From a virus, in the IMG/VR virus record IMGVR_UViG_3300042549_009629, positions 1 through 53,926 of that record: a stretch of DNA of 53,926 bases, one strand, 5' to 3'. How positions within the stretch are numbered: position 1 is the first letter of the stretch; every line of letters begins with the position of its first letter. The notes beneath the pieces are model-generated. The model made no database searches, was not told the DNA's origin, and was given only the letters and a program-made list of their open reading frames with translations. Positions 8,792 through 47,980 of this stretch are shown piece by piece. The position numbers and the translations under genes were made by a program.

Positions 8792-10501
8792 TTATAGAGA
8801 AGACAAACCTGATACGAATACACGACCATAAAATTCTGGACGAATCATTTTCTTAGCGTAACGAGTCAATAAACCTTTACGTGGAGTAAACGTTTCTGGG
8901 TCATACACCAATGGAGTCATGATTAATGGAACATATGGAGCAAATACAGCACCTGTTTCAAGGAATTGAGATCCTCTATAACCCATCAAGATAACGTTTT
9001 CAGTCATATAAGGGTTTTTATAAACAGTGTAACGGTTGTTCAAGTTACCTGATTTTTGGATACCGAATGCGTAAGACGATTTAGTTACATCACCATCAGA
9101 AGTTGAAGCAAATCCTGGGATTGATTCCAATACAGTTGCTACTGATGGAGAACATACTAAGAAATTTGCACCACCACGTAGTGTTTTTTGGTGAATCTTG
9201 TTAGACACTTTTTGGAATTTGGTACCCAAAGTTTGGAACCATTGACCTTGTGTGTTAAAGAATCCTAAATTATCATATCCTGTTTTAGCAGCGTTTAATG
9301 ACAAGTTATTTTGTGCATTCCAATATTCATCAGCAGCAGAAGCATCTTGAATCAACATATCTAAATTCTCTAAATCGATTTCTAGAGCGATATATTCAGA
9401 CATGATTGAAGTTAATTCAGCTTCAGCATCCAATGATTGGTATGCATTTAAATCTTGTGCAAACTCTGGTGTCCATTGTGCTTTCAATTTTCTTGTTTTA
9501 GCAACAATAGCTTCAGATTTCATTTTGATATCAATAGACGGGATAGCTAATGCGTCCGCAGCAGTTGATTCAGCATTTGGATAACCACCACCTAAAGGAT
9601 TAGATCCAGCACTAGATTTATCTTCAAAATCACCTCTGTTGTTATCAAGTGGTTGAATGTTGTAGAATAATGCATGAGAACCAACAGCTGTAGGAACATC
9701 AGCACTTGCTACTGCACCACCATAGATAAATGAAGCTGTTAAGTTAAGTGAAGTTGTACCAGTTACAGTTGTAAATTCAGGTAATAATTTAGCGTTAGTT
9801 GCAGGAGTTAAAGTTGAACCAGAAGCTAAGATAAATGCTCTAACACCTTTAACATCAGCATTTGATGGTAAACCAATAGATACTTTAGTATAAGATTGAG
9901 AAGATGAAACAAATTCTGCTCCGTATTTCAAATCTGACCAAGAAGCTGTTGCAACTGTAACTGTTGCTGAAGCTGTGAATTGGTTGATTGAATAAGCAAA
10001 TCTACCTGCACCATATAAACCACCAGTTGGGTCTCCACCAGCCGCTGGGTTAGTGTTACCGTACATTGAGGAAGTAGCACCATAAACATCTCCAGAAGGA
10101 CCGAAGTTACTAAATGGAGCGTTTTTACCACCTGCTTGTCCATATTGGAAATCTAGGAAAAATACAAGACCTGAAGGTAGATTCATTGGTTGTACAGACA
10201 TGAATTCTTTAGTTGATAAAGAACCAAATACTTTACGTACCAATGGAAGAGCTACACCAGCCCATTGCTCACCTTGTCCTACTGTAAAAGTAGCACCGCT
10301 ATTTCCAGTTGTGTTAGACTCAACAACTAATTGTTTTGCTTGATTTTCAAGAATCATAGCCATGTTGTTTTTATCAACTTCGCTTCCTATTCCTTCTAAT
10401 AAGCCTGTTTTAGACCATTTTGACGCCATTCTAGCCGCGTCGTTCTGCATGTTTTTCCAACCACCTGCAGCGCTTTCGAGTAATGAATTAATACTTGACA
10501 T
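8792..10501 (-). CDS. 23: Major capsid protein, T4 gp23-like
   Basis: A 569-aa protein matching the gp23 family: the N-terminal prohead peptide contains ILENQAKQLVVE, followed by GVALPLVRKVFGS and FMSVQPMNLPSGLVFFLDFQYG. The C-terminal PLVYDPETFTPRKGLLTRYA is also family-typical. T4 gp23 is cut by the gp21 protease after Glu65; here Glu61 (in VVE/SNTTGN) is the likely site, giving a mature protein of about 508 aa. The mature start SNTTGNSGATFTVGQGE recurs in the small protein at 14446-14895. The start at 10501 follows an A-rich leader without a Shine-Dalgarno. It sits 28 nt after the scaffold gene and is closed by a strong terminator, as expected for a highly expressed capsid gene. Confidence 0.95.
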   Translation of the reverse strand: MSSINSLLESAAGGWKNMQNDAARMASKWSKTGLLEGIGSEVDKNNMAMILENQAKQLVVESNTTGNSGATFTVGQGEQWAGVALPLVRKVFGSLSTKEFMSVQPMNLPSGLVFFLDFQYGQAGGKNAPFSNFGPSGDVYGATSSMYGNTNPAAGGDPTGGLYGAGRFAYSINQFTASATVTVATASWSDLKYGAEFVSSSQSYTKVSIGLPSNADVKGVRAFILASGSTLTPATNAKLLPEFTTVTGTTSLNLTASFIYGGAVASADVPTAVGSHALFYNIQPLDNNRGDFEDKSSAGSNPLGGGYPNAESTAADALAIPSIDIKMKSEAIVAKTRKLKAQWTPEFAQDLNAYQSLDAEAELTSIMSEYIALEIDLENLDMLIQDASAADEYWNAQNNLSLNAAKTGYDNLGFFNTQGQWFQTLGTKFQKVSNKIHQKTLRGGANFLVCSPSVATVLESIPGFASTSDGDVTKSSYAFGIQKSGNLNNRYTVYKNPYMTENVILMGYRGSQFLETGAVFAPYVPLIMTPLVYDPETFTPRKGLLTRYAKKMIRPEFYGRVFVSGLSSL

Positions 10502-10529
10502 TGTTTTTTGTTTTTGTTTTAAATTTTAA

Positions 10530-11765
10530 TTAAATAATACCAGCCAATTTTTGCATTCTTTTAAATACATCGTTTGACTCTACGATTGATTGTTTTTTAG
10601 TTGGAGTAATAGTTCCTTTAGAAGCTCTACCTAAGTTTTCTTTAATAGTACTTTTAGCTACTTTAATACCCTCGTTTAAAGTTTCATATACCATTTTTAC
10701 TTCACCTACGTTTTTAGCTTTGTCAAATGAACTTAATACTTTCACTTTTTGACTTTCGTTTAAGTTTTTAGCTTTGAATATTTTATTTGTGTAAAGCAAT
10801 TTAGCGTTTAACAAATTAATAGTATTCAATTCTTCTTTTAAAGTTTCGATTGCAGCATAAGCTTCTTCTAATTCTTCTTTAATGTTTTCTTCAAAAGCTT
10901 GTGGGTTTTTGAAAGCTCCACCCCCTTGGATTCTTCCTAAAAGACGTAACATTTCGTTATTGTTTAATCTTTTTGCTGTATCCGTCATGGTTTTGTCACT
11001 ATTTTGCATAGCTTGAAAGGCTTTAAGAATAGAAGTAATTTTCTCTTTATCTTCAGGATTTTTGTTTTCAAGGCTTTCCCATTCTGGGTAATTTTGGTCT
11101 AACCATTTTCTTTCGGATCCTTTAAGTAAGTTTTTAAAGAAATCACCGACTCCTTCTTCAACTTCTTCTTTTTCTTCGTACATTTCTTTTTTTTCTTCGT
11201 ACGTTTCTTCTTCTTCCATTTCTTCAATTTCTTTTAAAAGTTCTGCTAAATCTACTTCTTCGTCAGACATTTCCATTTCTTCACCTTCTTCACCTTCTTC
11301 TTCGCCTTCTTCACCTTCATGTCCTGCTTCAAGTTCACCTGAACCAACCATGTCTGCAATTACGTCTTCGATCATTTTTTTAAGGTCTTCGTCTGTCATG
11401 TCTTCTAAATCTAATGGTTCACCTTCTTCTCCGCCTTCTTTTTCTTCTTCCTCGCCTTCTTCAGCTTCGTTTAAGTTTTCATCCATTTCTTCATTTTCTA
11501 GCTCTGCTAAAAGTTCTTCCAAATCAATCTCATTCATGTCTTTATCTTCCATTTCTTCCATAGATTCTTTGTCTTCCATTTCGTACATGTCTTTGTCTTC
11601 CATTTCGTCCATCTCTTCCATTTCTTGAAGTTTCATTGATAACATAGATTTCAATTGAGGTGTGAAGGCTTCTTCTAGAGCTGCTTTTGCGTTTGCTATA
11701 GCCATTTCTTTTACAGCTTTAGCTTCAGCGATTGCTTCTTTAAGCATTTCTCTGTTTGTTGCCAT
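10530..11765 (-). CDS. 22: Prohead core scaffolding protein, T4 gp22-like
   Basis: A 411-aa protein located, as in T4, between the prohead protease and the capsid gene. Residues about 45-205 are extraordinarily acidic and Met/Glu/Asp-rich (EEMEDKDM-type repeats). A spacer follows (GVGDFFKNLLKGSERKWLDQ), then a helical C-terminal region with LNAKLLYTNKIFKAKNLNES, which fits gp22-family scaffolds. The end, SNDVFKRMQKLAGII, resembles scaffold tails that contact the shell. gp22 scaffolds are degraded by gp21; several (I/L)xE sites are present. Regulation: it follows the longest intergenic gap of the window, with two inverted repeats in the leader. The acidic repeats are longer than in T4 gp22 and may be an expanded, length-variable segment. 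Confidence 0.8.
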   Translation of the reverse strand: MATNREMLKEAIAEAKAVKEMAIANAKAALEEAFTPQLKSMLSMKLQEMEEMDEMEDKDMYEMEDKESMEEMEDKDMNEIDLEELLAELENEEMDENLNEAEEGEEEEKEGGEEGEPLDLEDMTDEDLKKMIEDVIADMVGSGELEAGHEGEEGEEEGEEGEEMEMSDEEVDLAELLKEIEEMEEEETYEEKKEMYEEKEEVEEGVGDFFKNLLKGSERKWLDQNYPEWESLENKNPEDKEKITSILKAFQAMQNSDKTMTDTAKRLNNNEMLRLLGRIQGGGAFKNPQAFEENIKEELEEAYAAIETLKEELNTINLLNAKLLYTNKIFKAKNLNESQKVKVLSSFDKAKNVGEVKMVYETLNEGIKVAKSTIKENLGRASKGTITPTKKQSIVESNDVFKRMQKLAGII

Positions 11766-11907
11766 TTTTCCTAAATTTATTTTTGTTGGGAAAATACGTT
11801 TATTAGAAACGTAATAGAATTTTATTAATTAGATACCACATAATGTATTGAGGGGTGGTATATTCGTATTATATGTATGTGTGGGGTAATGTAAAGTCGC
11901 AGAGAAC
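11766..11907 (-). promoter_or_regulatory. Leader/promoter region of the scaffold-capsid operon
   Basis: A 142-nt non-coding stretch between the terminator after the protease gene and the gp22 ATG, part of the longest gap in the window. It contains two inverted repeats: arms ATACCAC/GTGGTAT at 11833-11839 and 11855-11861, and TACGTTT/AAACGTA with a 5-nt loop at 11795-11813. Because a terminator precedes it and the most abundant virion protein follows, a strong late promoter is expected here, but the exact ATATTTAT octamer found at other gaps is absent. A TATAAT-like string is visible around 11867-11875 on the coding strand. Confidence 0.5.
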
Positions 11908-11930
11908 AAAAAAGCCCTCAAAAAGAGGGC
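11908..11930 (-). terminator. Rho-independent terminator after the prohead protease gene
   Basis: The stem GCCCTC/GAGGGC (11914-11930, 5-nt T loop on the minus strand) is followed on the minus strand by six T. It lies about 25 nt past the stop at 11955 and separates the gp17-gp21 transcript from gp22-gp23. Confidence 0.85.
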
Positions 11931-11954
11931 AATATTGTGTTATGTTATTTTATA

Positions 11955-12587
11955 TTAAAATATAGGGCAAGTACCTTTAGCACACAAAATTTCAGTCAAT
12001 AATGAATTTGTACGTGCATATGGATCTAAATATGTTGTTCTAGATTCATTTAATGAACCATTTTTCATCCATGAATCTGGGTTAGATGGGTTGGAAACTA
12101 AATCCCAAGTTAGCAATTCAAAGTCGTCTTGAACTTCCATTACTCCATCTGATTCTTTCAATGAACCCATTCCACGAGATGAAATACCAATAATTAAACC
12201 GTTATTAACTAACGCACCCGCTATACGACCAGATACTGTACCTTTTTCTCCTGGGTCTGAAAATATTTCAACCATACCTAAAATTTCATCTCCCTCCCAC
12301 CATATTTTTCTTATAGCGTGAGATGCATTTTTTAAATTGATAATCTGTGAGTCCGGATGATCCAGCTCACCACATGTTTCAGTTGTTCTCTGTTGGATTT
12401 TACGTTGGAAATTGTCGATTTCACGCTCCCATAACTCTCGTTTATAATATCTCCCGTTACCGTTTTTTATTTCAACAGTAGCCAAAATACCTTCAACAAA
12501 AACATTTCCACCGTTTCGCATTCCTTCTAAAATACGAACTGGTTTCGGAACAAATTGTCTGGTTTCTATTAAGAGTTGTTTATCCAT
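11955..12587 (-). CDS. 21: Prohead core protease, T4 gp21-like (peptidase S80)
   Basis: A 210-aa serine protease of the T4 gp21 type. The catalytic His is in GELDHP (His77) and the Ser in GISSRGMGS (Ser136 or Ser137), the expected order and spacing; the upstream strand region GNGRYYKRELWERE is also family-typical. gp21 degrades the scaffold and trims capsid and internal proteins after (I/L)-x-E during head maturation. The gene is 2 nt downstream of a 618-aa head-region protein and ends in a terminator. The same cleavage consensus is found near the N-terminus of many accessory proteins in this window, so its substrate set may be unusually wide. Confidence 0.9.
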   Translation of the reverse strand: MDKQLLIETRQFVPKPVRILEGMRNGGNVFVEGILATVEIKNGNGRYYKRELWEREIDNFQRKIQQRTTETCGELDHPDSQIINLKNASHAIRKIWWEGDEILGMVEIFSDPGEKGTVSGRIAGALVNNGLIIGISSRGMGSLKESDGVMEVQDDFELLTWDLVSNPSNPDSWMKNGSLNESRTTYLDPYARTNSLLTEILCAKGTCPIF

Positions 12588-12589
12588 TT

Positions 12590-14446
12590 TTAATATTCTT
12601 CTTCGGTATCTAATTCTTCACCTTGTCCAATATCTGAATCTTGTTTCCAGTAAAGGAAGTTTTTTATATGATTTCTCTCATCAAGTGATAAATTTGGATA
12701 ATTACCAATGATTGAATCAATGCTTTCTCCATCTCTTAATCTTTGTTCAGCATCTTTAAGATATTTAGGATCAATATCCTCTACCATATCTTCGGAATTA
12801 TCCATTTCATCAATTACTTCTTTTTTCTTTCCTTTATGCTTACCCATCATTTTATCAATTTTGGATTTTGCTTTTTCTAGTGCTTTGATATCTTTTTGAA
12901 TTTCTTTAACTTTTTTAGCATCGGTAAGGGCTTTCATATCCTCATCCTCGTCTAATTTGCTAATTTGAGATTGTTTTTTGTCAATTAAATCTTGTACTTT
13001 GTTTAATTTAGATTGTAAAATTTCGTGTTCAGCTTCTTTATTGATAGCTGCTAATTCTTTTTCAACACCTTCTTTTAAATCTTTTAAACTTTTTTCTACA
13101 GGGACAAATACACTGATATTACCTTTTGAATTAATTTTAGCACCTTTAATTTTAAATACTGGTTTTCCTCCTAATATAGCTGTTTCGATGTTAGCTCTAT
13201 CCATTAAGTGTTTTCTTAAATCTGAATTTCCAGCTTTAGGTCCAAGATTAGCATGCAATACTTTAGTTATAAAGATTTTATCTTCACCATTATCACCTGT
13301 TTTTACTATAAGATTTCCTTCTGATCTTTGGATTTTTTCAAAGTCTTTATCAAATGTTAAATATTTGTTTGATGGGTCTCTTTCTTCTCTATCTTTATTA
13401 ACTTTTTTAGGATTGATAATAGTACTCATTTGAGTAGCTTCACCTAATTCAGCATCAACCATTTCACGAATTATTTCACGTAATTTAGTTTCTTCAGGTG
13501 AATTATCTTTTTTTCTTTCAGCACGTCCTGGATATAATTGATTTAATTTAGCTTCAATTTCTTCTGGAGTGAATTTTTTGTCTGGTTTTTCAGTAAATGC
13601 TTTTTTAACATTGGATATAAAGCTATCTATTTCTTTAGATTCTTTAAATCCTATTGCTCTATCTTTAAGTTTATCTTTAAGAGCATCTCTTAATCCTTCT
13701 ACACCTTTTGTTGATAGCATAGAATTAACTACTATAGGAGTAACTCCCATACTGTGTAATTTTGATTTAAGATCTAATTCATCCATTGTATTAATGTCTG
13801 GTTCGTATGCCTCATTAATTTTAGATTCTTTTAAATCACCATATCCGGATGATTTCCATTTACCTTTAGCTTCTTTTGGCTCACCTAAACCAGGTGCTTC
13901 AGTAGTGTATCCTAAACCTTTAACTCCAAATTGACCATCTTTTGTATAGTGAATTGGATCTTTAGATAAATTTTTAATTACCATGTCTTTCAACTGTTGC
14001 ATGGTTTTATCAGCATTTTTAGGATCTTTCATTTCAGCATAATAACCCATCATGATTTGATCAAATATCAAATTATCTGGGTTTTTATCATCTTTATTGT
14101 CGAATTGTTTTTCAAGATCTTTTTCTACAGGTTTAGATACTTTTTTCTCTTCTGCTTTTACTTTCTCGTCTTCGTTTTCTTTCTTTTTTTTAGCTTCAGA
14201 TAAAAATGACTCAAATGCTAATTCATATGGTTGTTTTTTAGTCGGTTCAATATAATTAATAGGCATTACATTAATAATGTTTTCATTAATAATATTTTTT
14301 GTTTTTAATGAAGCCGCTGCTTCCTCAAATGTAGCAGCATTAGGTACATATTGTGGAAAGTCACGTTTTGCGTCTGCAAGGAAAACGCCTTTATGTCCTT
14401 TACCTTCTTTAATTAATAAATACTGATCTTGTAATGTCTTTTTCAT
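12590..14446 (-). CDS. Conserved head-region protein, Lys/Glu-rich, coiled coil (618 aa)
   Basis: The N-terminus KKTLQDQYLLIKEGKGHKGV followed by FLADAKRDFPQYVPNAATFEEAAASLKTKNII is a conserved element in large T4-like phages, with an (I/L)xE-like IKE at residues 12-14. The middle is highly charged and probably disordered. Long helical segments near 455-540 (EKELAAINKEAEHEI, LNKVQDLIDKKQSQISKL) form predicted coiled coils. A C-terminal motif DAEQRLRDGESIDSIIG precedes a helix. No enzyme motif was recognised. Its place between portal-proximal genes and the protease, with a TAATG overlap, suggests a core or internal head protein. Confidence 0.6.
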   Translation of the reverse strand: MKKTLQDQYLLIKEGKGHKGVFLADAKRDFPQYVPNAATFEEAAASLKTKNIINENIINVMPINYIEPTKKQPYELAFESFLSEAKKKKENEDEKVKAEEKKVSKPVEKDLEKQFDNKDDKNPDNLIFDQIMMGYYAEMKDPKNADKTMQQLKDMVIKNLSKDPIHYTKDGQFGVKGLGYTTEAPGLGEPKEAKGKWKSSGYGDLKESKINEAYEPDINTMDELDLKSKLHSMGVTPIVVNSMLSTKGVEGLRDALKDKLKDRAIGFKESKEIDSFISNVKKAFTEKPDKKFTPEEIEAKLNQLYPGRAERKKDNSPEETKLREIIREMVDAELGEATQMSTIINPKKVNKDREERDPSNKYLTFDKDFEKIQRSEGNLIVKTGDNGEDKIFITKVLHANLGPKAGNSDLRKHLMDRANIETAILGGKPVFKIKGAKINSKGNISVFVPVEKSLKDLKEGVEKELAAINKEAEHEILQSKLNKVQDLIDKKQSQISKLDEDEDMKALTDAKKVKEIQKDIKALEKAKSKIDKMMGKHKGKKKEVIDEMDNSEDMVEDIDPKYLKDAEQRLRDGESIDSIIGNYPNLSLDERNHIKNFLYWKQDSDIGQGEELDTEEEY

Positions 14447-14895
14447 TATTTTTCTGTTAAAAGTTGTTTTACCTCTTTAAGGTAATTTAATACCATTTCT
14501 ATTGGTTGTGTTATATCAAATGAACCTGCGTTTCCACTATATAATTCAATTGTTTCATTCTTTGCATTGGAAACTAATGGTGATATTTCATTCAATAATT
14601 TCTCAATTTCGTCTAAACCAGCTATACGTTTCTTTTGAAATTCGTTCATTTCATTTAACATCTCATCTTCCCACAATTGTTTTTTATCGTAAGATTTTGG
14701 TTTGATATTTGGAACTGGTTTAAATCCTAATTTATAGTAATAAATATTCTTAGTTCCTTTAGAATTAGTTTTAGAAGCAAATGCTGCCGGTGTAGCATAT
14801 CCTTCACCTTGACCAGCACTAAAAGAAGCGCCACCATTGCCGGTAGCGTTCATTTCTTTAATTTTAGCTCTTATTATTTCTTTAATCTTATCCAT
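14446..14895 (-). CDS. Small head-region protein with capsid-like mature N-terminus (149 aa)
   Basis: It starts MDKIKEIIRAKIKE followed by MNATGNGGASFSAGQGE. The second string aligns without gaps with SNTTGNSGATFTVGQGE, which begins directly after the predicted cleavage site of the major capsid protein. The IKE at residues 12-14 fits the gp21 consensus, so this protein would acquire a capsid-like N-terminus on maturation. Residues 60-149 are charged and helical (ELLNEISPLVSN, then MVLNYLKEVKQLLTEK). It overlaps the next gene by TAATG and the previous one by 8 nt. The function is unknown; a capsid-lining or vertex component is a reasonable guess. Confidence 0.65.
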   Translation of the reverse strand: MDKIKEIIRAKIKEMNATGNGGASFSAGQGEGYATPAAFASKTNSKGTKNIYYYKLGFKPVPNIKPKSYDKKQLWEDEMLNEMNEFQKKRIAGLDEIEKLLNEISPLVSNAKNETIELYSGNAGSFDITQPIEMVLNYLKEVKQLLTEK

Positions 14896-15786: not shown

Positions 15787-17682
15787 TTACTCTCGTATTT
15801 GTGATTCATCTAATAGTGAATTTCCCTTTATATCTGCTTCAAAGATCATTTGTTTTTTATGGGTTACAATATCTTTAAACATTTTTGTATTTTTGTTTCG
15901 TTTAGTTTCCAATGCTAATGGGGATCCACCTTTGTATTGTGGTTTAGTTGAATCAGATTCATCATTATCTTTTTTAGCACCTAAGGCTCCTATTCTATCT
16001 TTACCTAAAGCATTATCTTGAGTGTTTCTATCAGTTACTTTTTCTTCTGGTCTGCCTAATACTGGTTTTTCCTCTTCATATCCTACAGGAACTTCTCCAG
16101 AATCATATCTACTTCGACCATATAGGGAAGCTAAATCATGTGGTGTACCGTATGATTTTCCAGTTTCAAGTGGGTCATTACCTTCGTTTTCGATCTGAGT
16201 TATACGGAATTTACGTTTAGCATCTTGAGCAATCAAGTCTCTATATTCATCATATTGATCTTCACTCAAATGGAATATGTTTTCATATATCCAATCAGTA
16301 GGCATTAATTTATTTTCCATCATTTGAGTAGCTAGATCTACTTTTTCTTTCATTAATGCTACTCTTTCTTGGTCATAAATGATTGATGGTGTAGTTAATG
16401 ATAGTTCAAAATTAGTCATACTCTCATCTGTAAAACCTTGAGTATATAAATGAACCAATGCTATTTTAGTTAATTCAGATATTATAATACGTTGAATTCG
16501 TTCAATAGTACGAGCAAATCTAATATCTTCAGCTGCTAATGTAGCTTTACCTGTTAAATCTTTTTCATACCCCATAAACGCTTTAGGTACTTTAAGAGCA
16601 GCAAATAATTTATCTCTTAAATACTCAACGTCTTGAATCCCATCCCATTGTAAACCGCCTAAATTATCAATTTTAGTTGCTTGATCATTACCACGAATTG
16701 GGATATAAAAATCTTCAAGTAAATTTTGCATGTTATACTTCAAATTATAATCACCTGTTTGTTGATCAATATATGGAGTACGTTTCATTTTAGATATTGT
16801 CTTTTGCATGAAATTTTCTACTTCAGCAGGAGCAATATTACCAACGTTAATGTAAAATATACGTTTTTCAGGCGCTCTAACAATACGATGAATTAACATC
16901 GCATCTTCCATCATAGTATATTGTTTAAACAATTTACGAGCTGGTTCTAAATACGATCTACCATAAGGTAAAAAGTTAGTATCTGTAAGTAAACGGAAGT
17001 GAGCCATTTCATAGTTATCAAAATAAATTGAATTAGCTTGCCCTCCAGCATTTGGTACATTATAGTATCCATAATCTGATGGTGATGAAATACCATCTGG
17101 ATCAAATCTAAAACGAATTGAATTTGGATGGTCTCTATCATATCCATCTTGTCTTTCAATGTGATATGCATTGTATGGGATTACATTATATACTCCAAAT
17201 TTTTCAGCTATTTCTAATTTTAAAAAGAAATCTCCATATTTCAACATATTGCGAATCCAAGGCCATAAATTAAATTCTATGTTCAGTACGTCGTAGAATA
17301 AATTATATAGAATTTTTTGCACGTCCTCATCTGAGCTACGTATTTGAAGCACTTCTCCCATGTCGTTACGCAATGTGCTTTCGTCAGATAAAATATCTAA
17401 AGCAGAAGCAATAATAGCATCTGTATCCATTGAATCATATTCTGAATATAAAGTAGGTCTTAAGGTTTGGTAATTAAAGCTACTTTGGTACCCATAAATT
17501 GATGTATGTGAGTTAGTATATATTCGATTAAATCTATCTACAAGTGCATTTGTTTCATATTCACCTGAGATTTGTATTTTGTTTATATCAACTACTTTTA
17601 GTTGATTTCCCCCATCATTTCGAATGATTACATCGGTTGAAAATAATCTTTTTAATCTTGAAAATAATTTAGTATCTGCCAT
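15787..17682 (-). CDS. 20: Portal vertex protein, T4 gp20-like
   Basis: A 631-aa portal. The family pattern is clear: MADTKLFSRLKRLFSTDVII at the N-terminus, EYDSMDTDAIIASALDILSD (about 99-118), WPWIRNMLKYGDFFLKLEI (about 159-177), LDRGRSYLEP-like LPYGRSYLEPARKLFKQY, RIVRAPEKRIFYINVGN, and VPKAFMGYEKDLTGKATLA in the C-terminal third. Portals form the dodecameric ring at the packaging vertex and bind the terminase. The C-terminal about 100 residues are charged and low-complexity and probably flexible. It starts 10 nt downstream of the terminase stop, giving the order gp17-gp20-gp21-gp22-gp23 without gp18/gp19 in between, unlike T4. Confidence 0.92.
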   Translation of the reverse strand: MADTKLFSRLKRLFSTDVIIRNDGGNQLKVVDINKIQISGEYETNALVDRFNRIYTNSHTSIYGYQSSFNYQTLRPTLYSEYDSMDTDAIIASALDILSDESTLRNDMGEVLQIRSSDEDVQKILYNLFYDVLNIEFNLWPWIRNMLKYGDFFLKLEIAEKFGVYNVIPYNAYHIERQDGYDRDHPNSIRFRFDPDGISSPSDYGYYNVPNAGGQANSIYFDNYEMAHFRLLTDTNFLPYGRSYLEPARKLFKQYTMMEDAMLIHRIVRAPEKRIFYINVGNIAPAEVENFMQKTISKMKRTPYIDQQTGDYNLKYNMQNLLEDFYIPIRGNDQATKIDNLGGLQWDGIQDVEYLRDKLFAALKVPKAFMGYEKDLTGKATLAAEDIRFARTIERIQRIIISELTKIALVHLYTQGFTDESMTNFELSLTTPSIIYDQERVALMKEKVDLATQMMENKLMPTDWIYENIFHLSEDQYDEYRDLIAQDAKRKFRITQIENEGNDPLETGKSYGTPHDLASLYGRSRYDSGEVPVGYEEEKPVLGRPEEKVTDRNTQDNALGKDRIGALGAKKDNDESDSTKPQYKGGSPLALETKRNKNTKMFKDIVTHKKQMIFEADIKGNSLLDESQIRE

Positions 17683-19720: not shown

Positions 19721-20003
19721 AATAGTTACGTATATTTGTTATTTGTTGGTTGGTGCTATCTATTTCACAATCTAATGAATCTATTTTTGTTTGATGAAAT
19801 TCAATAGATTTATTTAATTCAACTTGTTCTTTTTTTAATCCATTTAAAACATTATTTAAACTATCAATTTGTTGTTTTTGTTTATCGTATTTAGATGAAT
19901 CGTTTTTAGTTGGTTTTAAAAATGCAAACCACAGTAAAAATAAAATAATCGCACCCATTATAAGGTGCGATATTCTAATATTTAGTATTTTGTCTTTAAC
20001 CAT
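19644..20003 (-). CDS. N-anchored coiled-coil protein, Rz/i-spanin-like candidate (119 aa)
   Basis: A single N-terminal transmembrane helix (HLIMGAIILFLLWFAFLKP, residues 13-31) is followed by a coiled coil (about 40-90: QQIDSLNNVLNGLKKEQVEL) and a short basic C-terminus. This is the topology of inner-membrane spanins (Rz). The gene overlaps the next membrane coiled-coil gene by 77 nt in a different frame, similar to the nested Rz/Rz1 organisation. The TAATG overlap with the gene upstream indicates coupling. No holin or soluble endolysin was recognised next to it; the GH19 enzyme at 49610-50476 lies in the baseplate module. Confidence 0.5.
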   Translation of the reverse strand: MVKDKILNIRISHLIMGAIILFLLWFAFLKPTKNDSSKYDKQKQQIDSLNNVLNGLKKEQVELNKSIEFHQTKIDSLDCEIDSTNQQITNIRNYYGKKIRDIANYTPSQLDDFFSKRYK

Positions 20004-20953
20004 TATTCAACTCCTCTACCAGCTGCTCTTTTTAAATCGTCCAACATTGTTTTTGGAAATTTATACTCGTCTTTAGCTTTTTTCAAATAAGCATCAACTT
20101 TAGCTTTATCGTCTTTATATTTACCAATAAATTTCAAACCTAAATTGAATTTTTCTTTTTTATCTGATGAGATATTTGATAATTGGTTTGCTGTTTTATC
20201 ACCTGCTATATCTTTAGCTGATGGACCTTCTTCATCTTCTGCATCTGAATATGACACATCATCAAATCCATCCTCTCCAGGTGTACGAGTAGCTACTTTA
20301 GGAGTATTATCTGAACCTGAACCTGCTGGTCTTCCTTTTTTACCTGTTGAAGCTGGTTTTTCTGGTTTGTTTGGGTCTGCTTTTCTACCACGTTGTCCTT
20401 TTTCTGTACCTAATACTTGTGCAGCAGCATCTTTTTCAATTGTGTTAGTTGCAATATCATCTTTAAATTTGTCACCTGCTTTTTCAGCATCTAACATTAC
20501 TACAGTTAATAAATCTTGTAGATTAATATTATGTTCTGCTTTAAGTTCTTTTTTAAGTGCAGATACATATCCTTTTAATCTTGCATTTTTACCTTCACCT
20601 GAAAATGTTGGGTTTTGTTTTAGTTTATCAATAGTAGATCGCTCAGCAGCTTTAACAGCAGATAATTCTTTACTTTTACCTTGTTTTTCTAATTGTGTTT
20701 TTAATTGAGTTATACTAGCCATTTCAGCTAATTGTTCAATTTCATCTAATTGTTCTGTTTCTTTAATATTTTGTCCAGCAGTAGTTTCAATATTTGAAAT
20801 ATTGCTGTCTTGTTTAAGATTAGTTACTGCTTTTTTCTCATCTGGGGTGTTAAAAGGCATTGTGGTAGTTTCTCCTTTTTTATTGGTTACAAGCACATTT
20901 AATGCTTCACTAATTTCTTCACGTATGATTTCAAGTAAACGAGTTTTTTTCAT
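20003..20953 (-). CDS. Charged accessory protein with capsid-targeting-like N-terminus (316 aa)
   Basis: It starts MKKTRLLEIIREEISEAL, an amphipathic helix with ISE at residues 14-16 fitting the (I/L)-x-E cleavage consensus. The rest has a helical middle (about 75-170), a basic low-complexity linker (GRKADPNKPEKPASTGKKGR), an acidic patch (SYSDAEDEEGPSA) and a C-terminal Lys-rich helical domain (about 255-316). No catalytic motif is seen. Basic/acidic low-complexity linkers are common in DNA-associated internal virion proteins. It heads the short operon that continues into the spanin-like pair and terminase. Confidence 0.55.
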   Translation of the reverse strand: MKKTRLLEIIREEISEALNVLVTNKKGETTTMPFNTPDEKKAVTNLKQDSNISNIETTAGQNIKETEQLDEIEQLAEMASITQLKTQLEKQGKSKELSAVKAAERSTIDKLKQNPTFSGEGKNARLKGYVSALKKELKAEHNINLQDLLTVVMLDAEKAGDKFKDDIATNTIEKDAAAQVLGTEKGQRGRKADPNKPEKPASTGKKGRPAGSGSDNTPKVATRTPGEDGFDDVSYSDAEDEEGPSAKDIAGDKTANQLSNISSDKKEKFNLGLKFIGKYKDDKAKVDAYLKKAKDEYKFPKTMLDDLKRAAGRGVE

Positions 20954-22933: not shown

Positions 22934-23209
22934 TTATGCTTTTTTTACTGATCTTACACTATCACCTTTTGTAAAAAGATTATCGTCTTTTGCTATACCT
23001 TTCCAAAAGTTTTGTGGGTTGATATCTGAAGCTATATCTTTGGCTGTAAGTGTATATTTAGTTTCTTCAACACCATCTCTATCATCTACAGTATAACTAA
23101 CAGTATATTTGCCAGGTTTAAGATTTTTTAAAGGAGTACTTTTTAATTCAGATTCATTAAGAATACTTTTAATTTCTTCTTTAATAAGGTGTTTTAATCT
23201 ATCATTCAT
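22934..23209 (-). CDS. Small protein with capsid-targeting-like helix and beta domain (91 aa)
   Basis: The first 20 residues (MNDRLKHLIKEEIKSILNES) form an amphipathic helix with IKE at 9-11. It is followed by a small beta-rich segment, LKPGKYTVSYTVDDRDGVEE then TKYTLTAKDIASDI. No family was recognised. It is the last gene of the accessory operon, ATGA-coupled to the cupin-like gene and followed by the terminator. If the N-terminal peptide is removed on packaging, the mature protein would be only about 75-80 aa. Confidence 0.55.
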   Translation of the reverse strand: MNDRLKHLIKEEIKSILNESELKSTPLKNLKPGKYTVSYTVDDRDGVEETKYTLTAKDIASDINPQNFWKGIAKDDNLFTKGDSVRSVKKA

Positions 23210-23466
23210 GATTTATGTATCTTTAATTTTAATGTTCCTGTTCCTTTAATAACACGATGCCACTCATGTCTTGGGATAAATATACGTTCTTTTAGTGAGG
23301 TAGGCAAGCAATTATCTAATTGAAGTTGCCAATTTGTTTCATTTAGAATTTCAATTGTTCTATCTTCATCATCACGATGCCATAACAATTCAATTGGGTC
23401 TATATTTTCGTTAAACTCACGAATAATATATTTATCTGTAACTTCTATGTCTGTGTATGGATGCAT
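23206..23466 (-). CDS. Small cupin-like phage protein (86 aa)
   Basis: Conserved elements are ELLWHRDDEDRTIEIL, a central WQLQLDNCLP, and IFIPRHEWHRVIKGTGTLKL. The alternating beta pattern with WHRD and EWHRV histidines suggests a minimal cupin-type barrel, as in small proteins of large T4-like phages whose function is unknown. No metal site can be proven by eye. It overlaps both neighbours by 1-4 nt. Unlike its neighbours it has no N-terminal amphipathic helix. Confidence 0.5.
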   Translation of the reverse strand: MHPYTDIEVTDKYIIREFNENIDPIELLWHRDDEDRTIEILNETNWQLQLDNCLPTSLKERIFIPRHEWHRVIKGTGTLKLKIHKS

Positions 23467-24065
23467 TAAATATCAAGTAATTTTATATTACCCTCAGAAT
23501 CATAGCCAAATTGTTCTGTGTGTATATCTAGTTTTGTTTTACCCATTATAGATGATACTTTAATTAAAAAATCAATCCATTTTTTTAATAAGTCTGGGGT
23601 TGATGTTAGGGATAATAAAGTATTTAATTCTTTTTTTAAAGAAGAGGAGGGAGTGTTTAGAAATAAATGATATAGTAAGCCAATAAAGTCTAGTCCCTCT
23701 AAATTATCATTTTCCATTAAATCATCTAATAAAATTGAATATTTTCTTTTTTTTTCACTACGCCATTTTAAATTAAAGAATTCTGTTTGTAATTTTTCAA
23801 GCTCATTAATAGCTTTTTCAGTATTTAATTTTTCTAAAACAGCATATTTGTCTGTTACTTTATAAACAATTGGGAAAATATCGGGGTGTTTTTGGAAGGT
23901 TGTTATTTGGTCTTTATTAATAGATTCTCCTTCATATGGGTCAAAAGTTTTTATTACTTTATTAGAATCTTTAGAATATGGGTAAATAATATGTTCAGAT
24001 CCTTGTCCTATAGGTTCTTTACCAGATATAGAAATTTCTTTTAATATGTCTATTAATTTTATCAT
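23466..24065 (-). CDS. Minimal protein-kinase-like fold protein (199 aa)
   Basis: After an N-terminal helix MIKLIDILKEISISG (LKE at 8-10) come recognisable kinase-fold landmarks: Gly-rich loop IGQGSEHIIYPY (19-30), a VAIK-like VIKTF (Lys39), a hinge-like YAVLEKL (74-80), a catalytic-loop-like LDIHTEQFGY (Asp180, Gln185 in place of Asn) and a DFG-like LLDI (Asp198). The protein stops one residue after that Asp, so the activation segment and the rest of the C-lobe are missing. It may be an active minimal kinase, a pseudokinase or an NTP-binding protein. It is ATGA-coupled to the Cys-rich gene upstream. Confidence 0.55.
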   Translation of the reverse strand: MIKLIDILKEISISGKEPIGQGSEHIIYPYSKDSNKVIKTFDPYEGESINKDQITTFQKHPDIFPIVYKVTDKYAVLEKLNTEKAINELEKLQTEFFNLKWRSEKKRKYSILLDDLMENDNLEGLDFIGLLYHLFLNTPSSSLKKELNTLLSLTSTPDLLKKWIDFLIKVSSIMGKTKLDIHTEQFGYDSEGNIKLLDI

Positions 24066-24500: not shown

Positions 24501-24971
24501 TTATTTTGTTTTACCCCATTTAGTGCCTTTACCAGGTGTTTTACATTGTGCTGCTGTAGGGCGACATGAAGGATATTTAGAACGTTTTTCTCCTTCTTCT
24601 CTACCACATGCTTTATATCCTGTTATTTCACCATCTTTTCTAATAGGTGCATTACAATCAACCCATCCACCTTTTTTACCAGGTGCACCTTTACGTTTGA
24701 ACCAAGTTCGAAGAGTTTCTTTAACTTTTTCAAGAATCAATTCTTCTTTCACTTTAGCAAATCCTGATCCATAAGGAGCAGCTTTACCTGATTGTGGGTC
24801 ATCTGTTTCTTTTATGTCTTTCCAAATATCTCCTTTACGACATCTAACTACAGCACCGGATTTATAAGCCGATGGTTTATCAAATTTGCGATCAGCAATG
24901 CGTAAGCATCTGTCGCGTTTTTCTTTTTCCTCTTGTAAGACTTCTTGTATGATTTTTTTTAATCTATCCAT
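24501..24971 (-). CDS. Basic Cys-containing protein, DUF5872-like (156 aa)
   Basis: The start is set at ATG 24971 (overlapping the upstream TGA by one base) rather than the TTG six bases upstream. The N-terminal helix MDRLKKIIQEVLQEEKEKRD has IQE/LQE sites. Two modules follow: RCLRIADRKFDKPSAYKSGA with VVRCRKG, and a C-terminal basic module LRTWFKRKGAPGKKGGWVDC...YKACGREEGEKRSKYPSCRP, which matches the DUF5872-type pattern found in giant viruses and large phages. It is strongly basic, with paired Cys and likely zinc- or nucleic-acid-binding. The neighbour at 24971-25651 carries a related Cys/Arg-type C-terminal module. Confidence 0.6.
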   Translation of the reverse strand: MDRLKKIIQEVLQEEKEKRDRCLRIADRKFDKPSAYKSGAVVRCRKGDIWKDIKETDDPQSGKAAPYGSGFAKVKEELILEKVKETLRTWFKRKGAPGKKGGWVDCNAPIRKDGEITGYKACGREEGEKRSKYPSCRPTAAQCKTPGKGTKWGKTK

Positions 24972-25651
24972 CACCAAAATCCTGAAAATGAAGATTTTAA
25001 TCCAAGTAACTTAGCATAACGTGGTAATCTACATGACCAATAAGATGCTTTTGTTCTGTCTGTTTTATTTTTACAATCGTGACGTGCCGCGAATGCTCTA
25101 CGTGCTTCTGGGTTGTTTATTTTAGCTGATAGGCCTGATGTATCTCCAAAACTAACTTTTTTGATTTTTTTAGTTTTTGGATTTTTTACATAAACATAGA
25201 ATTTTTTAGATCCACCACGTTTTGGTTTTCCAATTGGAGGATTTTTCTTTTTGTCTTCTGCTTCTTCAAGTTCGTCTTCCTCTAACATAGGTAAGTCTAA
25301 AGGTACTTTTTTACCTTCATACATTCCATATTCACCTAAGCTAGTTTCAAGTAAAATTTCTTTATCATCATCGTTTACATGAATAATTTCACGTAAATAT
25401 AAGTAACGAGCTTCCGACCATAAATTAAGAAACGATTGCGAACCATATCGGAACGTGTTTTCGGTAAGTGGGAGTTGTTTATCCACGTGGTAACGCAGAT
25501 TTTCCGATAATATATCTTTTTTAACTAAACTTTCGTTTAGTACTACACCAGTGTTACCTACATTATCACAATCGTGACACCCACAATTGCATTTATCTTT
25601 TTTAGGTGGGGTAGATAGTACTTCTTTTATTAATTGTTTTAAACGTTCCAT
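24971..25651 (-). CDS. Cys-rich/basic accessory protein (226 aa)
   Basis: The N-terminal helix MERLKQLIKEVLSTPP (IKE at 8-10) is followed by a Cys cluster CNCGCHDCDN (22-31), an acidic middle (LEEDELEEAEDKKK) and a C-terminal basic domain. That domain contains KKFYVYVKNPKTKKIKKVSF, then FAARHDCKNKTDRTKASYWS and CRLPRYAKLLG. The last domain is a recurrent module in large phages and giant viruses, in my recollection of unknown function. It has its own ATATTTAT octamer only 4 nt upstream of the ATG. Pairing with the DUF5872-like gene (1-nt overlap) suggests a joint role, possibly DNA binding in the virion. Confidence 0.6.
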   Translation of the reverse strand: MERLKQLIKEVLSTPPKKDKCNCGCHDCDNVGNTGVVLNESLVKKDILSENLRYHVDKQLPLTENTFRYGSQSFLNLWSEARYLYLREIIHVNDDDKEILLETSLGEYGMYEGKKVPLDLPMLEEDELEEAEDKKKNPPIGKPKRGGSKKFYVYVKNPKTKKIKKVSFGDTSGLSAKINNPEARRAFAARHDCKNKTDRTKASYWSCRLPRYAKLLGLKSSFSGFW

Positions 25652-30636: not shown

Positions 30637-32325
30637 TTAAAATTTAGATAAATTTAATGCCCCTAATCTGCTTCTCCAAAGATTAAGTATTTCTTCTTTT
30701 TGTTCCGGAGTTATATCTTGAGCATTTAAATAAGTGTCTATAACATCTCTAAACGGACGTTTTTCTTTTTTAGCACGTAAATACATTCCTTGTAAATTAG
30801 CATCTACTTCTTTTTCTAATTTAAAATATTGAGCCGGAGGGAGTAAATCAGCATCTATTAATTTTCGAATTAGTTCATCATCTTCCATAGATTTACCTTT
30901 ATTTAAATTAGGACCTTCACCATGAGTTAAATGTTCTATTTCATGACGAACTACATCTTTTAAATTCATTGATATTTCTTCCCAATATTCTGGGAGTAAT
31001 TCGGGGTCAATTTCGAAACGGATTTGTAAATACCCTGTTTCAGAATCTGCTCCACCATCTACTTTAAGTCCTTTAGAATCAGGTACAAATGAAATATTTG
31101 CATCTATATCTATTTCTAAATCACTATCATTAAATGTTTGGTCAATTCTAGATGCTTCAGCAGCATTATTATAATCACTTTTCCATTTATTAAATATAGT
31201 AGAAGAAATTTGATTTGTAATTTTATCGTAACGACCTTCGTTTAATGATGGAGTATTATCATGTCCACATTTATGACAAATGTATAAATCATCTCCACCA
31301 TCTTTTATTTTCCAACTCCATCCACAATCATCACATACTATTCTATCTCCAAGTACACCTTCAGTTAATGTATCTGTCCAATTTCGAAACATCATATTAC
31401 CTTTTTCATATGCTTCTCTTTCAATTTCAGGTAGATCTCCGTCTTCGTTTGTATTTGTAGTATTGATATTTGTTAATTTATCATTACAATTTTGTTCGTG
31501 GTGGATCATTTCATGCGCAAATGAACGCATAACATCTTTTGGATGACGATCCATAGTGTAAAGTACTATAACGCGATTATTCGGGTCATAATATGCTGTT
31601 TTACCGAAAAAATCTTTTGCATTTTCACTGTCATCATCTACAAATTTAACTTTAGGTAAAGGACGAATATTCATTCCTTTTTCTAACATATATTCTGTAA
31701 GAGATTTAACTATTGGAGGAAAACTAAATTTGCTAGGTTCAGCATACATTATTTCTTCAATTGGTGTTTTGGTTAAAATACTCCAAACTTTATTTCGTTC
31801 TTCATCATTTAACTCAACGGGTAAATAACGTTGAAAATTTTCAAAATTATTATCTATTAACGCGGCTCGTGCTTTAGTACCACTAACGCCTTGATCACCG
31901 TGGATAACAATTGGTTCAAAATTATTATATTTACCCTTCATGCTATCAAATCGTTTGATATCTTTTAAATCAAACTCTCCTCTAACTCCTACTACAGGTA
32001 AATAAAAATTTTCAGGGTTATTTTTAATAATTGAATTTACATCTTGAACTGGGGAGTTACTATCTGCTATTTGGATTTCAACATTATTAGGTAAATATTT
32101 TTTATATATGTTCCATATAGCTAAACTTTCATCTTTAGTTACACCGTCTCTATCTTTATGACCTATTAAAACTATTACTTTATTTACTTCAGGTCTTTTT
32201 GCAATCTCACTTGCCAAATAAAAATGTCCTGCTGTTGGGGGTTTAAACCCACCAGGAACTAAAGCAATGCCTTGTTTTGTTTCCTCTAATAAAGGTTGAA
32301 TGAGTGATTTAACTAACGAATTCAT
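30637..32325 (-). CDS. Nucleotidyltransferase fused to two zincin-like domains and a zinc ribbon (562 aa)
   Basis: Domain order: an N-terminal helix with LLE (12-14); an NMNAT/cytidylyltransferase-type domain (about 18-190) with PGGFKPPTAGHF (24-35) and the SGTKARA signature (148-154); a zincin-like domain with HEMIHHE (271-277) and downstream Glu in EIEREAYEKG; a zinc ribbon Cys331/Cys334/Cys350/Cys353; and a second zincin-like domain with HEIEHLTHGEG (461-471) and downstream EVDANLQG. Both metal motifs look intact. A nucleotidyltransferase joined to protease-like domains in one chain is unusual. Roles could be NAD or nucleotide metabolism plus peptide cleavage, possibly delivered with the virion. 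It overlaps the kinase gene upstream by 17 nt. Confidence 0.7.
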   Translation of the reverse strand: MNSLVKSLIQPLLEETKQGIALVPGGFKPPTAGHFYLASEIAKRPEVNKVIVLIGHKDRDGVTKDESLAIWNIYKKYLPNNVEIQIADSNSPVQDVNSIIKNNPENFYLPVVGVRGEFDLKDIKRFDSMKGKYNNFEPIVIHGDQGVSGTKARAALIDNNFENFQRYLPVELNDEERNKVWSILTKTPIEEIMYAEPSKFSFPPIVKSLTEYMLEKGMNIRPLPKVKFVDDDSENAKDFFGKTAYYDPNNRVIVLYTMDRHPKDVMRSFAHEMIHHEQNCNDKLTNINTTNTNEDGDLPEIEREAYEKGNMMFRNWTDTLTEGVLGDRIVCDDCGWSWKIKDGGDDLYICHKCGHDNTPSLNEGRYDKITNQISSTIFNKWKSDYNNAAEASRIDQTFNDSDLEIDIDANISFVPDSKGLKVDGGADSETGYLQIRFEIDPELLPEYWEEISMNLKDVVRHEIEHLTHGEGPNLNKGKSMEDDELIRKLIDADLLPPAQYFKLEKEVDANLQGMYLRAKKEKRPFRDVIDTYLNAQDITPEQKEEILNLWRSRLGALNLSKF

Positions 32326-33064
32326 TTATTTTATTTTTAGCAGTATCTATAGTATCAAATTCAGGTAATTGATTAACCATAGATTCAATATCTTTATTTA
32401 ATTGTAATTTTTCAGCATCTGATTTTGCTTGTTCTTCTGGGGATTTAGGTTTACCTACAGATGTAGATGCTTGGATAAATGGTTCAAGTAAATCAGTATT
32501 AAATCCTCTATTAGCATCTTTTGGGTTATTATTTAATAATATAAAATTATTTCCAAATGCTTCTTTATATGTTTCAATGTTTTTATTTACATCTCTCCAA
32601 GTTCGTAACACAATCCCAGGCATTAAACTTCTATCACGTTGTTGATTACGTTCAAGTGAAGTTAAGGGTGAAACATAAATCATTAACATTAATGTTTCAT
32701 ACCCTAAATCTTCTAGTTGTTGTTTTTTCTTTAATACAGGTCCAGATGCAGCACCAGTTCCATCAATAACAATATTATTTTTATTTTCTATTGATTGAGC
32801 TAATTTATCTTGAGTTACTTTTCTAGCTTGAGCTTGTAATTTAGCAGATTGAGATAATTCATCCGGAGTAAAATCTTTTTGTTTTAAACCGATTCCACTA
32901 GCTTTTAACAATGCTTCATAAGTATCGTCTGAATTGATAGAGGTAAATGTGTTAGGTATAAGTTTAGAAGATATATAGGATTTTCCACTCCCTGCAGGAC
33001 CTGCTAAGAATATAGCTTTAGGACCATCTTGCATTTCTTTTAAAAGTTGAACTAAACTTATCAT
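32309..33064 (-). CDS. P-loop kinase, zeta-toxin/polynucleotide-kinase-like (251 aa)
   Basis: The N-terminal helix MISLVQLLKEMQDG (LKE at 8-10) precedes the Walker A motif AGPAGSGKSYISSKL (about 21-35). INSDDTYEALL follows the P-loop as in zeta-toxin-type kinases, and IVIDGTGAASG (Walker-B-like) and a lid with RNQQRDRSLMPG are present. Substrates in this group include UDP-sugars, polynucleotide 5-prime ends and small nucleotides; none can be chosen here. The C-terminal 70 aa are charged and helical. It is separated from the RecB-like nuclease by 11 nt and overlaps the fusion gene downstream. Confidence 0.7.
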   Translation of the reverse strand: MISLVQLLKEMQDGPKAIFLAGPAGSGKSYISSKLIPNTFTSINSDDTYEALLKASGIGLKQKDFTPDELSQSAKLQAQARKVTQDKLAQSIENKNNIVIDGTGAASGPVLKKKQQLEDLGYETLMLMIYVSPLTSLERNQQRDRSLMPGIVLRTWRDVNKNIETYKEAFGNNFILLNNNPKDANRGFNTDLLEPFIQASTSVGKPKSPEEQAKSDAEKLQLNKDIESMVNQLPEFDTIDTAKNKINEFVS

Positions 33065-47243: not shown

Positions 47244-47645
47244 TTAAAAATTAAATAATATATTATTTGAAGTGTTTTGGTAAGAATATTTAAGATTAAC
47301 TGTAAGTGAATTAGATACATTTTGAGTTTCAAACACATCTAATGAAATTACATTTACTGAAGGAAAGTAGGTAGATAATTTATTATTTACATCAGTTTTT
47401 AAATTACTTAAATCTCCATCAGATATTTGTTGAAATAAAAATGATCTTAAACCACCTCCAAATGTTGGGTTTAAAGGAATCTCTCCGGGTTCAGTTAAAA
47501 AAAAATTAATAAGATTATTTTTTATAGCTTCTTGAGTAGTATAATTTGAAGTAAATACAGAAGGACCATTAAAAGGAATATTTACCCCAACAGCAATATT
47601 TGGATTTAAATTAAGGGGGTCAATATATTGAGGATTAATAGGCAT
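47244..47645 (-). CDS. 25: Baseplate wedge protein, T4 gp25-like
   Basis: A 133-aa protein with the gp25 hallmark EPGEIPLNPTFGGGLRSFLF (about 62-81, the EPR-type core) and a C-terminal beta-strand end (VNLKYSYQNTSNNILFNF). gp25 has a lysozyme-like fold without activity in contractile systems and pairs with gp6 in the wedge core. One-base overlap with the preceding gene and a 3-nt gap to gp6. Confidence 0.92.
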   Translation of the reverse strand: MPINPQYIDPLNLNPNIAVGVNIPFNGPSVFTSNYTTQEAIKNNLINFFLTEPGEIPLNPTFGGGLRSFLFQQISDGDLSNLKTDVNNKLSTYFPSVNVISLDVFETQNVSNSLTVNLKYSYQNTSNNILFNF

Positions 47646-47980
47646 TATTTACTCATTAATTTCATTATTTGGTCCATTCCTATTTCACCTTCTCCTAAAC
47701 TTCCATTTATAGGATCAACTGATTGAGGTCTAAAGGGTTGTTGAACATCATTTGATGTAAAACTTAAAGCTGTTTCACCTAAAATATCCATATATTTTGA
47801 TTTCAAATCCATTGTTGGTTGAGTAAAAGATGGTTCTGGGGTGTGAGGGGGTGGGTTGTAAGCTTCTCTAACTAATTGTTTAGGTGCTTTAATAGCTTCT
47901 AGTAAGATGTCTTTCAATTCTTCTTGAATTGCTTCTTTAACTGCTTCTTTAATAATTTTTTTAAAATCTGTGCTTTTCAT
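47645..47980 (-). CDS. Small protein with capsid-targeting-like N-terminus in the baseplate operon (111 aa)
   Basis: It starts MKSTDFKKIIKEAVKEAIQE, an amphipathic helix with IKE and IQE, followed by a second helix ELKDILLEAIKAPKQLVREA. A Pro-rich segment (NPPPHTPEPSFTQP) and C-terminal KYMDILGETALSFTSNDVQQ, then GEGEIGMDQIMKLMSK complete the protein. The last two segments are conserved in large T4-like phages as I recall. It sits next to gp25, well away from the accessory block. An octamer 6 nt upstream may make it the first gene of the gp25-gp6 transcript. Confidence 0.55.
   Translation of the reverse strand: MKSTDFKKIIKEAVKEAIQEELKDILLEAIKAPKQLVREAYNPPPHTPEPSFTQPTMDLKSKYMDILGETALSFTSNDVQQPFRPQSVDPINGSLGEGEIGMDQIMKLMSK

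Follow-up and report, generated by a model that had tools for sequence, protein, structure and literature searches.

Why would a small protein encoded among the head genes of a phage be predicted to start, once matured, with nearly the same residues as the major capsid protein? The question arises in the window that we analysed, a viral stretch of 53,926 nucleotides (positions 1 to 53,926 of IMG/VR virus record IMGVR_UViG_3300042549_009629). Here the major capsid protein (569 amino acids; 8792-10501, minus strand) and a small head protein (149 amino acids; 14446-14895, minus strand) share a segment that lies, in both, directly after the glutamate of a predicted cleavage site for a gp21-type prohead protease. 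We describe how specific this match is, its parallel in gene 61.1 of phage T4, and how the two copies have changed together.

A segment shared by two head proteins

The preliminary description of this DNA had read SNTTGNSGATFTVGQGE at capsid residues 62-78, after VVE61, and MNATGNGGASFSAGQGE at residues 15-31 of the small protein, after IKE14. Both segments are found at exactly these residues and coordinates, and the match extends to the next aromatic residue (W80 in the capsid, Y33 in the small protein) and an Ala beyond. Capsid residues 62-80 (SNTTGNSGATFTVGQGEQW; 10262..10318, minus strand) and small-protein residues 15-33 (MNATGNGGASFSAGQGEGY; 14797..14853, minus strand) are identical at 11 of 19 positions, in register and without a gap. 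None of 200,000 shuffles reached this value (shuffle mean of 2.3; p of about 5e-6), bearing out the earlier claim that the match is not due to chance.

The placement of the match exactly after both predicted cleavage glutamates was upheld as well. Capsid E61, unvarying in 31 capsid proteins, aligns with T4 gp23 Glu65, at which the propeptide is known to end (PMC7136217), and both M1 and E14 are invariant in relatives of the small protein (sets of 23 and 32). The strict form of the gp21 cleavage rule is L/I-X-E (PMC9026906). Position P3 is Leu or Ile in 87 of 91 small proteins, fitting this rule, and the capsid site, V-V-E with Val at P3 throughout the 91 capsid proteins compared, is a small departure from it.

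To estimate how specific the segment is, we scanned the window in all frames without gaps using the capsid segment as query. Only the capsid itself scores higher than the small protein (z = 8.6 for the small protein, 4.6 for the next hit), which is again the runner-up in a 166-kb relative (z of 8.3-8.6 over the two scans; next at most 5.4). We also built a profile from ten small-protein peptides, containing no capsid sequence, and searched 15 whole phage records with it at E values up to 10. Two forms of small protein exist, a long one with the segment GASF-GxGE-Y and a short one (for example MSTTGAVGGY). In the nine long-form records, whose lengths range from 44 to 167 kb, the profile hits two places per record and no others, namely the small protein and the N-terminal segment of the capsid. 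In the five short-form records it hits the small protein only, and in the Mel-JY01 record nothing. In some related phages the motif is present in neither protein. The profile and scan results indicate that the motif is uncommon in these phages, excluding the possibility that it is a general feature of many proteins. Widespread occurrence in unrelated proteins, which the preliminary description had named as an outcome that would count against it, thus did not turn up in the whole phage records examined; the motif is confined to the two head proteins.

The T4 N-fist and gene 61.1

The copied segment aligns with residues 66-91 of T4 gp23, the first ~25 residues of the mature protein gp23*, which have been named the N-fist (PMC7136217). 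The N-fist forms a bridge between four subunits, lacks order in the five that face the portal, and moves on expansion from the inner to the outer side of the shell (PMC7136217, PMC9958956). Before expansion the gp23* N-termini are interior and disordered (PMC9958956).

Comparing the T4 gp23 N-fist with the whole T4 genome, we found exactly one other gene that carries it, gene 61.1 (NC_000866 18966-19130; L265 in our set), which adjoins the primase gene and encodes a 54-amino-acid 'hypothetical protein'. The product reads MKTFKEFIKE followed by DMVAGDSGGNPENISIGTTSGAVVNKGPEQIPKKKKEESKEKEE, that is, an IPIII-like capsid-targeting sequence ending in Glu10 and then the N-fist copy. Glu10 is consistent with the rule of the gp21 protease, 14 of the 32 residues after it are identical in register to mature gp23, and the best matches of gp61.1 in the whole PDB are T4 gp23 chains. 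In its first ten residues gp61.1 is similar to MKTYQEFIAE, with which two T4 open reading frames (ORFs) begin; we take these two to be IPII and IPIII because of their sizes and because the targeting sequences of IPII and IPIII are published as identical (PMC9026906). In the IPIII targeting sequence, processing is blocked when position 10 is an aspartate (PMC9026906). The earlier proposal that the motif supports the cleavage-site prediction gains independent support from this parallel.

We found relatives of 61.1 in 1,441 phage records. Several of these are labelled 'major capsid protein', and the Merlin record carries the annotation 'T4 gp23-like', so annotators had already noticed the similarity. 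In the papers searched, gp61.1 appears in annotation tables only, with no function assigned and its likeness to gp23 undiscussed. The N-fist segment is present in T4 gp61.1 and in its relatives from 12 other Straboviridae-type phages. In 4 of these 13 (T4 included) a short targeting sequence precedes it, and in the other 9 a domain of ~100 residues that ends in a Glu site. This domain of the long relatives (L269 77-541, L272 44-541, L275 83-562 and others) corresponds up to the predicted Glu site to phrog_2086, and partly to phrog_18642.

We found no match to the 61.1 profile phrog_2086 in the window and the records of six relatives, and a PHROGs search of the small protein and its short relatives gave no match to phrog_1823 or phrog_2086. 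Because no sequence relation was found outside the capsid-like segment, gp61.1 and the small protein of the window appear to be the same device on different bodies.

One explanation for the position of the segment is that it reflects a preference of the gp21-type protease for its prime side (P1'-P19'), since it starts exactly at P1' in both proteins. We consider this very improbable: T4 IPII, IPIII and gp24 have gp21 sites without the segment, the only second copy in T4 being gp61.1, and other proteins of the window phage with similar N-terminal helices do not have it either.

Correlated change of the two copies and a proposed docking model

Both the small protein and the capsid could be read in 91 unique phage pairs. 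Capsids were classed by the F..GxGEQW ending (match) or other forms (non-match). Long small proteins accompany match capsids in 55 pairs and short ones accompany non-match capsids in 32, with 2 + 2 exceptions. Because related phages are not independent, we applied Pagel models on trees, testing dependent versus independent change with 4 degrees of freedom. The likelihood ratio is 29.2 on the capsid-body tree, 46.9 on the protease tree, 32.7 on the tree of a 285-amino-acid head-cluster protein and 25.8 on the portal tree (p from 3e-5 to 2e-9 across the four trees, with 7-11 changes per trait). Segment lengths are equal in 49 of the 55 long pairs, where 31 are expected, and one phage (L050) has an insertion common to the segments of both genes. 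The coupling of capsid and small protein is visible in changes of form: the small-protein motif has been kept in step with the capsid over evolution, as functional mimicry would predict.

These results also bear on whether the two proteins simply converged, or matched by chance, on a generic flexible linker rich in Gly, Ser and Thr after the cleavage site. The segment is Gly-rich, and AlphaFold2 (AF2) predicts the copy in the small protein to be disordered in isolation. Such convergence is nevertheless hardly credible given the register, the matching lengths, the specificity and the co-switching, and given that the T4 copy is a quite different sequence that yet matches T4's own capsid.

Another explanation is neutral copying, in which short gene conversions without function keep the two genes alike. 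The two L050 segments have 81 % DNA identity, and 14 of 16 shared residues use the same codons, with the identity ending at the segment limits. L050 1246-1698 and the capsid gene of this phage probably hold a recent gene-conversion tract of ~60 bp, within the N-fist segment only. Most pairs, however, have diverged at synonymous sites. Comparing the DNA of the small-protein segment with that of the capsid segment, third codon positions are 42 % identical, positions 1-2 are 66 % and the flanks 27-34 %, and in L247 only 5 codons are identical for 14 residues in common. The mostly diverged synonymous sites suggest that the match is maintained at the protein level. A copy without function would also not be expected to persist family-wide, or to recur in a different T4 gene ~86 kb away, and neutral copying alone is improbable. 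Occasional conversion combined with selection at the protein level fits best.

Taken together, we favor a model, to which we give an even chance, in which the small protein is a head-targeted protein processed by the gp21-type protease whose new N-terminus docks in the N-fist sites of the shell. Its first 14 residues (14854..14895, minus strand), for which AF2 predicts a helix over residues 2-20 (mean pLDDT of 77 over residues 1-10), would act as a cleavable targeting helix, with Glu14 at P1, that brings the protein into the prohead. The gp21-type protease encoded at 11955..12587, the expected enzyme for both cuts, would then cut the small protein after Glu14, at the stage when the capsid would also be cut after Glu61. 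This cut would expose a copy of the N-fist, which in T4 moves out of the prohead interior at expansion and locks neighbouring capsomers. Docked through its copy, the small protein would most likely occupy positions that lack an N-fist of their own or leave it unused, for example where the shell faces the portal or a vertex; portal-adjacent sites are the obvious candidates because T4 leaves those without an ordered N-fist. The C-terminal part, residues 34-149 (14449..14796, minus strand), contains ATPxAF and YYYKLGFKPV segments and then a predicted helical hairpin (AF2 helices 74-116 and 129-148). As a putative cargo or tether domain, it may be anchored in this way on the mature head and act there as a plug, tether or brace. 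T4 gp61.1 and its Straboviridae relatives would serve the same function with a body that is not homologous to that of the small protein. Mimicry of the capsid N-arm, as first proposed, is retained insofar as the small protein copies an N-terminal segment of the capsid; the copied piece is the N-fist and not the entire arm.

Alternatively, both new N-termini may bind one third component inside the prohead, such as a scaffold remnant, the portal or the protease surface, rather than N-fist sites. This predicts the same correlated evolution and agrees with the interior, disordered state of the gp23* N-termini before expansion (PMC9958956) and with the disorder of the portal-facing N-fists of T4 (PMC7136217). 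We consider it unlikely, since no portal or protease column tracks the motif form beyond the tree-based null and in T4 the mature segment is known to reside in the shell itself.

Several observations weigh against the favored model. The column-association search named no site of the capsid body as a dock; a single capsid-body column, rich in gaps, and a single scaffold column, weakly aligned, rise above the null, and neither is interpretable. Residue-level covariation in the window's own clade is absent once relatedness is removed (partial Mantel r of about 0), and fine-scale covariation in Straboviridae is not significant (p = 0.19). The motif classes were set after inspection of the data, and four pairs break the association (L098, L155, L182 and L197). 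The AF2 models are too poor to help or to support fold searches (pTM of 0.28 for the small protein, making its fold unreliable, and 0.34 for the capsid). Flavobacterium phage immuto and cyanophage S-BM3 have no N-fist copy by the same scan, indicating that the device is not essential for T4-like heads; for Mel-JY01, PA5oct and RM378 the segment scans used the cyanophage segment only. As to two of the four exceptional pairs, L182 and L197 have an altered capsid N-fist (ATSKAVGGAGENW and TQRAVSGGGENW) and a small protein that retains the GASFTPGVGAQY form.

It is possible, although we regard it as doubtful, that at least two distant T4-like lineages, T4 included, independently evolved or have long kept a dedicated mimic of the capsid lock that plugs N-fist sites left empty in the symmetric shell, for example at the portal vertex. 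Such a mimic would be a general and overlooked part of T4-type head maturation, a textbook system. If the mature end of gp61.1 is a second source of N-fist, gene 61.1 gains a specific role, and the 'major capsid protein' label sometimes given to it by annotation programs would be explained. The same reading would provide a candidate to fill the N-fist positions at the portal and the vertices and a natural route for attaching proteins to the shell. The prediction of cleavage sites in uncultured T4-like phages is strengthened as well, and the arrangement of T4 gp61.1 makes the idea testable in a classic laboratory phage.

The head genes of the window and known head proteins

The capsid gene encodes a propeptide (residues 1-61, ending in VVE61; 10319..10501), the N-fist equivalent, assigned by alignment to gp23 66-91 as the predicted mature N-terminus, and a Gp23 fold (residues 81-569 and the stop; 8792..10261). 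With its match to PF07068 (E = 6.6e-73) and a propeptide site that aligns with T4 Glu65, the 569-amino-acid protein is a Gp23 on both counts. Relatives of the window have only one gene of the Gp23 family, and gp24 was not detected in them. The protease matches Peptidase_S77 (E = 7.4e-26) and phrog_207 (E = 5.2e-50), and the gp20-type portal protein (15787..17682) matches PF07230 (E = 6.4e-69). The acidic scaffold-like protein (10530..11765) is assigned to the gene-22 position from its place and composition, and has no family matches in Pfam or PHROGs. All of these genes lie on the minus strand, and Rfam gave no matches in the region. The order of terminase, portal, 285-amino-acid protein, small protein, 618-amino-acid protein, protease, scaffold and capsid resembles that of T4 genes 17, 20, 67, 68, 21, 22 and 23. 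The 618-amino-acid protein (12590-14446, minus strand) ends in SDIGQGEELDTEEEY, with a GQGE tetrapeptide outside any cleavage context. In phage L006 the capsid ORF has a propeptide seemingly short by ~27 residues, including the cleavage Glu, so that KTGL abuts the N-fist; this is either real or an assembly error.

We found 198 relatives of the small protein in uncultured viral contigs, and a shorter version of 73-80 amino acids in immuto and its relatives. The small protein has no match in Pfam or PHROGs, and tblastn against phage records gave chance hits only. In L034 (7367-8143) the targeting helix starts one ORF and the N-fist copy follows another Glu in a different ORF, and in L048 unrelated sequence is fused to the helix. 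A similar N-terminal helix, short, basic and amphipathic (for example MERLKQLIKEVL and MNDRLKHLIKEEI), without the N-fist copy, is found on many other proteins of the window, all on the minus strand (20003-20953, 22934-23209, 24501-24977, 24971-25651, 47645-47980, 23466-24065, 30637-32325 and 32309-33064), where some of the helices precede enzyme-like domains.

Compared with known head proteins, the small protein resembles the gp61.1 family (phrog_1823, phrog_2086) in having a predicted gp21-type Glu site followed in register by a copy of the N-fist of its own gp23, whereas gp61.1 is unrelated in sequence and is encoded beside the primase gene rather than in the head cluster. T4 IPI-IPIII and Alt likewise carry a short N-terminal helix that ends in a Glu site, with inferred processing by gp21, and the N-terminus of the small protein (MDKIKEIIRAKIKE) is of this IP type, a short targeting helix ending in L/I-X-E; unlike the small protein, IPII and IPIII have no N-fist copy after the site. 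The T4 prohead core proteins gp67 and gp68 are also encoded between the portal (20) and the protease (21), but they show no sequence similarity to the small protein (by Pfam, PHROGs and comparison by eye) and have no N-fist copy. Finally, the T4 vertex protein gp24 has a ten-residue propeptide, MAKINELLRE, that resembles the targeting helix, but it is paralogous to gp23 and has a capsid fold, not an N-fist followed by a tail.

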